From Candidatus Kaiserbacteria bacterium (GTDB taxonomy: Bacteria; Patescibacteriota; Minisyncoccia; Phycocordibacterales; Phycocordibacteraceae), in the NCBI GenBank assembly GCA_029288865.1, contig JARIGM010000031.1:1-40958 (forward strand): 40,958 nt of DNA, written 5' to 3'. The number at the start of each line of letters is the position of its first letter. The first letter of the stretch is position 1. The translations under genes were made by a program, and so were the position numbers. The notes below the pieces were generated by a model that searched no databases, had not been told where the DNA came from, and saw only the letters and a program-made list of their open reading frames with translations. This document shows positions 6,467 through 30,097 of this stretch, piece after piece.

Positions 6467-7063
6467 CTAACGAGTATTGGCTTCCATGGTCGCCTTTTCG
6501 GCGCCTTCGGAGATGAAGAGTTCAAGCACGTGACAGGTTTTCTTCAGCACTTTCTTGAGCTCAGGTTCTTCTTTAGGAGAGAATTTACCGATCACATGCT
6601 TCACGACTTTCTCCTCGCCAGTAGGCTTCTTCGTTTTCCCTTTGGGCGTTGAACCGGAAATCCCGATCTTGATCTGATAGAACGCCTTGGTTTTAAGAGC
6701 TCGCATGATACTTTCCACGCCTTTGTGTCCGCCTGAGCCGCGTTCAAATGTCATCTTCATAACGCCGAGCGGCAGATCGAGATCATCACGAATAACGACG
6801 AGCTTCTGGGCAGCCTTTACGCTCTTCACGAACGCGGGAGCCGCCTTTCCCGATTGGTTCATAAAAACCTCCGGCAGCACGAGCTGCACTTTTTCATCTG
6901 CAACGCTGCCTTCAGCAACAGAAGCATGCGCAACCTTTCGCAAGGCAAAGTCATCGAAGCCTTCTTGCTTCGCAAACAATTCAACAGCCATACGACCCGC
7001 ATTATGTCGCGTCTTTTCGTATTCTTTTCCTGGATTCCCGAGTCCCATTATTACGTAGGGCAT
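6467..7063 (-). CDS. pth: peptidyl-tRNA hydrolase
   Basis: MPYVIMGLGNPGKEYEKTRHNAGRMAVE..., VIRDDLDLPLG, GSGGHKGVESI. Confidence 0.96.
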   Translation of the reverse strand: MPYVIMGLGNPGKEYEKTRHNAGRMAVELFAKQEGFDDFALRKVAHASVAEGSVADEKVQLVLPEVFMNQSGKAAPAFVKSVKAAQKLVVIRDDLDLPLGVMKMTFERGSGGHKGVESIMRALKTKAFYQIKIGISGSTPKGKTKKPTGEEKVVKHVIGKFSPKEEPELKKVLKKTCHVLELFISEGAEKATMEANTR

Positions 7064-7170
7064 ATGTATTCCTCATTTTACCAGCAATCCGCAGAGACAT
7101 ACAGCACACGCTTTTGAAGAGGCTCTCGGAGAACGAATGACATTTGCGAGCCGTAAGGAGTCTGCGAACA

Positions 7171-7282
7171 AGAGATAGAATGAGGCAATTGGTGGGGCTC
7201 TGCGCAGCGCGTCGGCGCGAGCAGGAGGAAATTTTTCAGCAGAAAAATATTCCGGACCCACCAATTGCCTCATCCTATCTCT
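7171..7282 (+). repeat. foldback element copy 1: 26-nt inverted arms around a 60-nt structured core
   Basis: Arm 7171-7196 AGAGATAGAATGAGGCAATTGGTGGG pairs with 7257-7282 (one A/C mismatch). Core 7197-7256 is related to the core at 30013-30071. Confidence 0.85.
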
Positions 7283-7289
7283 ACGCTTG

Positions 7290-7317
7290 TTGACGCGTGT
7301 AAAAAGAGGAATACAAT
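7290..7317 (+). promoter_or_regulatory. lepB promoter
   Basis: TTGACG (7290-7295), 16-nt spacer, TACAAT (7312-7317); ATG at 7327. Confidence 0.6.
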
Positions 7318-7326
7318 ACACCTACG

Positions 7327-11377: not shown

Positions 11378-11500
11378 ACAAACGACCTATTCGTTATTCA
11401 TCCAGCGACGACGCTCAACGGAGAGAGTAGGAATGCCCCGCATTCATGTGGGGAGGAAAGAAAGAGATCAGGTAAATATTTGCCTGATCTCTTTCTTTAT
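11378..11500 (+). ncRNA. candidate ~120-nt small RNA between ftsA and the MazF-like gene
   Basis: Starts ~7 nt after a consensus promoter and ends at a 12-bp terminator; internal hairpin CCCCGCAT/ATGTGGGG; no convincing ORF with a stop. Confidence 0.4.
11461..11500. terminator. bidirectional terminator
   Basis: AAAGAGATCAGG (11461-11472) / CCTGATCTCTTT (11483-11494). Confidence 0.75.
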
Positions 11501-11866
11501 TTTGGCAAATACAGCAGAGTCAATTTTAAATAGCCGTTCTTGTAGTCTGCGTACGTCGATCAATTTGATTTGCGAAATTATTACGCTCCTTGTAATACCA
11601 TCAGGACATTTGATGACAAAATAAAATCTATTCGAGGGTTTTACCTTAGAGCTTAAAGGGACTGTTAGGAAAATGCTTGCATTGAATTTTCGTACTATTA
11701 GTACCGGTCGCTGCCAGCTAGGCCCCTTGCCATCTTCTTCGCTTCCCACATTCAAACCATATGCGCACCACCAGGCTTCTCGTTCTTGGAACTGAACGGC
11801 ATCGATATCGCTGCGAAGGCTTATGGTTTTCTTAACTTCATTCCATCGATCGAAATCCTTCTGCAT
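11468..11866 (-). CDS. PemK/MazF-family toxin-like protein, no adjacent antitoxin
   Basis: REAWWCAYGLNVGSEEDGKGPSWQRPVLIVRKFNASIFLTVPLSSK...SQIKLIDVRRLQERL. Confidence 0.8.
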   Translation of the reverse strand: MQKDFDRWNEVKKTISLRSDIDAVQFQEREAWWCAYGLNVGSEEDGKGPSWQRPVLIVRKFNASIFLTVPLSSKVKPSNRFYFVIKCPDGITRSVIISQIKLIDVRRLQERLFKIDSAVFAKIKKEIRQIFT

Positions 11867-29986: not shown

Positions 29987-30097
29987 AGGGAGACACAGAT
30001 TGTTTGAAACAGGCTCTCGGAGCGTGTCGACGCGAGAGCGAGCCGATTTTTCAGCAGAAAAATACGGCGTACTGTTTCAAACAATCTGTGTCTCCCT
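29987..30097 (+). repeat. foldback element copy 2: perfect 26-nt inverted arms around a 59-nt structured core
   Basis: 29987-30012 AGGGAGACACAGATTGTTTGAAACAG is the exact reverse complement of 30072-30097; core related to 7197-7256. Confidence 0.88.

Follow-up and report, generated by a model that had tools for sequence, protein, structure and literature searches.

A family of dispersed two-hairpin elements with locus-specific inverted arms in Parcubacteria

Foldback elements of the window

The window, by which we mean the whole stretch of DNA analysed, comprises 40,958 nt of a Candidatus Kaiserbacteria bacterium (assembly GCA_029288865.1, contig JARIGM010000031.1, positions 1 to 40,958). The genome, designated G000, amounts to 842 kb in 36 contigs, of which the window is C26. 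Two foldback elements, copies 1 and 2, each consist of a core flanked by inverted arms peculiar to the locus, and they are the top two hits of an inverted-repeat search of the window. Copy 1 is located between the divergent genes pth and lepB, and copy 2 at the 3′-end of lepA. The arms are 26 nt long in both, with spacings of 60 and 59 nt, just as an earlier reading of the window from its letters and open reading frames alone (the sequence-only reading) had placed them. Folding gave z-scores of −11.1 and −12.5 for copies 1 and 2, and no shuffled sequence was as stable. A third, partial copy directly 5′ of copy 1 had been missed in that reading. The features are as follows, the covariance-model E-values being rough because calibration was short.

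7171-7196, + strand: copy 1, 5′ arm, locus-specific, 26 nt, 25/26 complementary to 7257-7282
7196-7257, + strand: copy 1, conserved core, two-hairpin three-way junction; model match 69.6 bits, E 3.9e-11
7257-7282, + strand: copy 1, 3′ arm, pairing with 7171-7196
~7121-7169, + strand: partial long-form copy, 5′ half (GGCTCTCGGAGAACG...GTCTGCGAAC) without the 3′ half, abutting copy 1; like the complete long form at G000:C23:69603-69704
29987-30012, + strand: copy 2, 5′ arm, locus-specific, 26/26 complementary
30012-30072, + strand: copy 2, conserved core; model match 91.8 bits, E 1.2e-15
30072-30097, + strand: copy 2, 3′ arm, its outer end overlapping the lepA stop codon (lepA is on the − strand and ends at 30096)

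Structure of the core

The heritable core measures about 57-62 nt (long forms about 95-120 nt) and folds as two hairpins. Its parts follow in the order hairpin 1, GA, hairpin 2 (loop AGCA, with a bulged A) and then usually GTAC or GTGC, these being the 3′-end of the core in 72 and 39 of 175 elements, respectively. In the consensus, hairpin 1 possesses an internal loop of G(G/C)A opposite GA; its commonest form, GCTC-TCG-GA-GCG / CGC-GA-GAGC, can be read by eye as a kink-turn. Copies 1 and 2 have in common the hairpin ATTTTTC-AGCA-GAAAAAT, which is closed by GGAA/TTCC in the one and by GCCG/CGGC in the other, a compensatory difference, with the bulged A retained in both. The homology of the two cores and these details had been recognized in the sequence-only reading.

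Among 100 distinct core sequences, 92.7% of cells pair, compared to 70.6% after shuffling, and double changes number 417 as against 117. The covariation score is 0.52, a value reached in none of 500 shuffles; shuffled sequences score 0.15, and sliding the partners lowers the score to 0.08 or less. The compensatory pairings first seen between two copies therefore hold for the larger set. The two hairpins covary; they are the putative mobile unit.

Family size and distribution

Further G000 copies were found by a pattern search for the loop hairpin, and a covariance model, built from seven cores and biased to the short form, identifies nine copies in this genome: one each on C4, C5 and C11, and two each on C13, C23 and C26, the last two being those of the window. 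Three of them, on C4, on C5 and one of the two on C23, have a longer first hairpin and measure 101-102 nt (long forms); the second match on C13, of 95 nt and 37.8 bits, is a divergent variant of the long type. The partial copy of the window is the tenth. In the comparison genomes, which are limited to one per species and thus to species-level divergence, with genes called by a simple ORF script, the model matches 42 of 99 relatives, with more than 150 copies, often several per genome and up to 13. A search of this kind had been proposed in the sequence-only reading; since it returns copies both in G000 and in relatives, the core match is not due to chance, and the predicted family of conserved core and locus-specific arms exists.

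With even sampling across the phylum, 8 of 287 genomes contain model matches, six of them in the order of the window. When 85,462 species genomes were scanned for the pattern, at least 119 stretches were found. Among the matches listed, the labels are overwhelmingly Kaiser-, Adler-, Nomura-, Yonath-, Taylor-, Wildermuth-, Uhr- and Moraniibacteria, Parcubacteria and Paceibacterota, and most of the listed records labelled only "bacterium" or "uncultured bacterium" also fit the covariance model. Matches in Erwinia, Escherichia, Duodenibacillus and Saprospiraceae show no or only a marginal model match and are attributed to chance. The family is nearly confined to Parcubacteria/Paceibacteria. Carriage by phages was rejected, as none of the 2.9 million viral contigs of IMG/VR contains a match.

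As the sequence-only reading had anticipated, the element belongs to no named family: Rfam 15 at the gathering cut-off yielded only tRNA and RNase P, and at E values up to 10 only sub-threshold microRNA and snoRNA noise from the long stem. In the open-access papers searched for hairpin or repeat elements of Parcubacteria or the candidate phyla radiation, no description was found. A constant folded core, framed at each locus by inverted copies of the local sequence, suggests a spreading repeat of a kind for which these databases and papers have no entry.

Cores resemble one another within genomes. The nearest relative of a core lies in the same genome in 33 of 91 cases, whereas 300 shuffles gave 4 on average and never more than 12. 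For RNase J, lepA and nusB, a core clearly resembles the other cores of its own genome more than it does its orthologue. The rpmE core of G002 is identical to a core at another locus in G000. Clustering by genome points to recent spread or to homogenization by gene conversion.

The arms

Arm complementarity scores of 14 or more occur in 132 of 175 elements and in about 1 of 300 mismatched pairings. Stems range from 12 to 41 bp across the family (median 23), and those of 25-26 bp make up 6 of 8 G000 copies as against 9 of 94 elsewhere (p = 9e-5). The cluster at 25-26 is thus a trait of G000, and a fixed 26-nt arm, which the sequence-only reading had thought might be measured, was abandoned as a rule for the family. 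Among same-genome copies with 90-100% identical cores the arms are mostly unrelated, and terminal arms differ even between copies whose cores are identical. Arm identity is higher in the AT-rich genomes G071 and G076, up to 0.88 in one pair. In G076, four elements (L065, L070, L074, L092) have TTTGCGGAC...GGTAGCAAA in common as an outer motif, placed outside arms that vary and measure about 16-19 bp.

Mismatched pairs in the arms, scored symmetrically, include 65 G.T and 27 A.C (p = 9e-5). The ratio is 27:9 where the host gene is on the − strand, 16:2 where it is on the + strand and 22:16 in mixed contexts, where G.T is not clearly in excess; no bias is seen among the 26 rpmE elements taken by themselves (7:6). 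Because the excess occurs with both host strands, pairing of the + strand seems to be maintained whatever the direction of the host mRNA, a pattern in keeping with a self-transcribed RNA or a single-stranded DNA form; strand-biased cytosine deamination is a further possible source of the G.T excess.

Position and comparison of loci

Many elements lie directly behind stop codons; copies are found in divergent regions as well, and T enrichment after the 3′ arm, such as the U-tract of an intrinsic terminator would give, is only weak. In positional counts, which include orthologues and are uncorrected for shared ancestry, a gene ends on the 3′ (R) side in 65 of 156 elements with context, the core being 25-34 nt from the stop codon in 32 of these 65. 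A stop codon less than 20 nt from the core, and hence inside the arm, occurs in 6 of 65 cases on the R side and in 0 of 50 on the L side (p = 0.035), which fits an original R flank on the gene side and a new L arm.

The 3′-end of clpB in G000 carries a long-form element whose arm, CCGTATAACCGTACGAGTGAGAAAAG, starts within the last codons. Most of 30 relatives are without a hairpin here; G002 and G057 (L072) have a short-form element, G029 a degenerate half, and a few others weak or terminator-like hairpins. At the nusB-NUDIX 3′-end of G000 the arm CACAGAACAGGTAATGCG includes the codons QNR-stop; in G022 the coding end is similar and the palindrome is absent. At both loci the far-side arm is the derived one, since it is an inverted copy of coding sequence. 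The 3′-end of lepA consists in most relatives of a stop codon followed by a promoter, with no hairpin; elements are found in G000, G014 and G029, and remnants in G002 and G036. G014 and G029 are 91% identical at the lepA end, and one has a short core and the other a long core, with different arms.

At pth-lepB the TTGACG noted upstream of lepB in the sequence-only reading is present at 7290. G018 has an element at the orthologous site in the same orientation, differing in its arms and core subtype, beside which TTGACG and the adjoining TGTTGACG flank are conserved. An inverted repeat of 28 nt (7054-7081 / 7299-7326, 79%) encloses both copy 1 and the partial copy. The lepB leader (7299-7326) resembles the inverted start region of pth including its first codons, and is perhaps an older flank copy. 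Locus L353 (G099, rpmE) is like 7121-7169 of the window in having a new element within an old one that is without its 3′ half.

Origin of the elements

The mechanism that we consider best, at close to an even chance, starts from a mobile core of two hairpins, which on folding back would prime a brief switch of template into the flanking DNA. The core would first enter intergenic DNA, in most cases immediately after a stop codon. At or after insertion, the strand ending in the folded core would snap back and be extended along the neighbouring flank for some 20-30 nt, after which synthesis would resume on its own template, leaving X-core-X′. The arms might later be kept complementary by further template switching, by selection on the + strand fold, or by both. 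Snap-back copying would yield locus-specific arms, perfect complementarity in young elements and host gene ends inside arms, and perfect hairpin stems are known both to arise and to persist through template switching (PMC8794818). The family would then be a small non-autonomous dispersed element of Parcubacteria with a heritable core, a description that we believe, as regards mobility and snap-back synthesis, almost as readily as we doubt it.

Insertion of a core with inverted copying of its flank had been suggested in the sequence-only reading, together with a comparison of element-free orthologous loci. The suggestion is supported at clpB and nusB-NUDIX, where one arm contains the last codons of the gene and most relatives are without a hairpin, and rpmE is ambiguous. 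It is possible, and we propose it tentatively, that these elements represent a new class of mobile element, in which a folded core is inserted and the target is duplicated by snap-back copying of the adjacent strand. The duplication would be inverted instead of direct as usual, and would involve neither conserved ends nor a known transposase. No systematic direct repeats outside the arms, such as a target-site duplication would leave, were noticed, although no dedicated search for them was made.

Several observations weigh against flank copying by an inserted core. About 15% of arms end in a GCGA...GAGC/GAAGC motif, more than in shuffled flanks, which such copying does not predict. Some orthologous arms are homologous with compensatory changes (L340/L354 at rpmE; L032/L059/L035), so that some arms at least are not fresh copies of the flank; these changes can be produced by selection or by template-switch correction (PMC8794818). 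At the rpmE 3′-end (up to 72 regions), elements and plain hairpins share the same place, both starting about 7-11 nt past the stop codon, a picture that fits vertical descent or insertion into hairpins; judged from the sequences, hairpins may have given way to elements, elements may have been inherited vertically, or their cores may have been lost. The relatives are of species-level divergence, with saturated intergenic DNA, and include no near-identical pair of filled and empty genomes. No transposase tracks the family.

An alternative that we regard as unlikely is a vertically inherited structured RNA (or single-stranded DNA) motif of gene ends, with a functional core homogenized by gene conversion and a closing helix of any sequence. 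It accounts better than the mobile core for the strand bias, that is, the G.T excess of the arms, found also with host genes on the − strand, and for the conserved positions at rpmE, RNase J and pth-lepB. Strong core covariation, the tandem-GA and kink-turn-like motifs of the + strand and the conserved outer GCGA/GAGC motif also speak for it. It accounts worse for the flank copies: the inverted copies of coding ends, and the fact that only some of the closely related genomes have an element at lepA or clpB, speak against it. Host orientation is moreover not fixed (35 vs 19 in codirectional contexts), no promoter of its own was found by eye, and G.T pairs are scarce in core helices 2-5 (1.3%, compared to 3.2% in tRNA acceptor stems; p = 0.005). 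The sequence-only reading had argued against a mere mRNA leader or terminator. The copies in divergent regions agree with this, whereas the many copies right behind stop codons, where relatives have terminator-like hairpins (rpmE, ftsZ), do not.

Those hairpins (stems about 10-25 bp, loops 1-13), lying exactly at the element positions, are what recommends a second alternative, namely that the core inserts into the loops of existing terminator-like hairpins and the arms are old terminator stems. We consider this improbable, because most relatives are without a hairpin at clpB, nusB and lepA and the arms at the first two include coding sequence. The inner ends of the arms also appear AT-rich by eye, as opposed to the GC-rich interior of plain rpmE hairpins, and the four longest plain hairpins of the window have stems of 16-21 bp, whereas the element arms of the window are mostly 25-26.

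That the element is a repeat of the repetitive extragenic palindrome (REP) or miniature inverted-repeat transposable element (MITE) type, mobilized in trans by a transposase of the Y1/RAYT type or by a reverse transcriptase, is very improbable. Bulged hairpins and the frequent 3′ GTAC do recall single-stranded DNA elements, and genes for Y1_Tnp or a reverse transcriptase are present in many of the relatives. However, the ends are not conserved, Y1_Tnp (PF01797) is absent from the element-bearing genomes G000, G018, G024, G045, G057, G063, G071 and G076, and RVT_1 from the element-bearing G018, G029, G040, G045, G063, G073 and G084; neither enzyme thus explains the spread. A single reverse transcriptase of roughly 350 aa, perhaps of diversity-generating retroelements, is encoded at G000:C23:34745-35350 and in many relatives, with a distribution that does not match that of the hairpin elements. 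Chance inverted repeats or an assembly artefact, for which only the draft state of the assemblies speaks, are refuted by the many independent genomes and the covarying core, and their probability is negligible.

Comparison with known systems

Integron attC sites are likewise folded single-stranded sites behind a stop codon with a variable stem; there, the outer boxes are conserved and the end is variable, whereas here it is the centre that is conserved. More generally, known small bacterial repeats are recognized by their conserved ends. In the present elements the ends are private to each locus and the centre is shared, and repeat finders that seek conserved termini would therefore miss them.

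Double-hairpin elements (Paquin et al. 2000, cited in PMC5910586) and palindromic GC clusters (PMC4478555) of fungal/yeast mitochondrial DNA are similarly tiny non-coding hairpin units with many intergenic copies that merge together, thought to be mobile by an unknown enzyme. They differ in sequence, host and core fold and, as far as these sources show, have no flanking locus-specific inverted arms. The GTAG-tagged palindromes of the REP/REPIN-BIME type with their RAYT (Y1) transposase (PMC3733652) are also intergenic, near gene 3′-ends, with bulged hairpins and an adjacent tetranucleotide. In the present family the conserved unit is central and the ends vary, and, as stated, Y1_Tnp is absent from G000. 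No conserved GTAG was found at the palindrome foot in 175 elements, the foot being locus-specific and the core ending in GTAC/GTGC, nor do the elements have the conserved terminal inverted repeats of a MITE derived from an insertion sequence, as the arms differ between copies.

Template-switch or quasipalindrome mutations (PMC8794818, PMC7202029) produce perfect reverse-complement stems in one event, kept by apparent compensatory change, but they are known as sporadic events unconnected with any conserved dispersed core. In the TIGR arrays of Tas proteins (PMC12045711), whose hosts include Parcubacteria, variable palindromic sequences surround conserved units. The present elements occur instead as single dispersed copies, and box C (RUGAUGA) is absent from both strands of all 175, for which reason TIGR guide arrays were rejected. 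Were inverted flank copying true, the elements would offer a natural means of assaying template switching in uncultured bacteria and show one way in which 3′ hairpins arise at gene ends; were the + strand bias a sign of function, a structured nucleic acid so far undescribed would be present in a very large group of bacteria.

Other repeats and minor features

Small hairpin units of other kinds, having a GAGTAC loop or CACCAC...GAGTACTTC, occur at L354, L347, L367, L138 and L195; they sit within cores or alone at the lepA site and constitute further small repeat families of the same genomes. Long-armed foldbacks with a different core occupy the same gene-end sites (rpmE, lepA) at L390, L324 and L137 and are possibly sister families. 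At L038 (G035:C47:101-278) there are two tandem copies of the same core, 116 nt apart, with related inner arms. Five proteins of the window had no matches in NCBIfam. A near-perfect 42-bp palindrome at 11457-11498 of the window has no core and overlaps the 3′-end of the ORF at 11468-11866 (− strand); in its position at a coding end it resembles the element arms.
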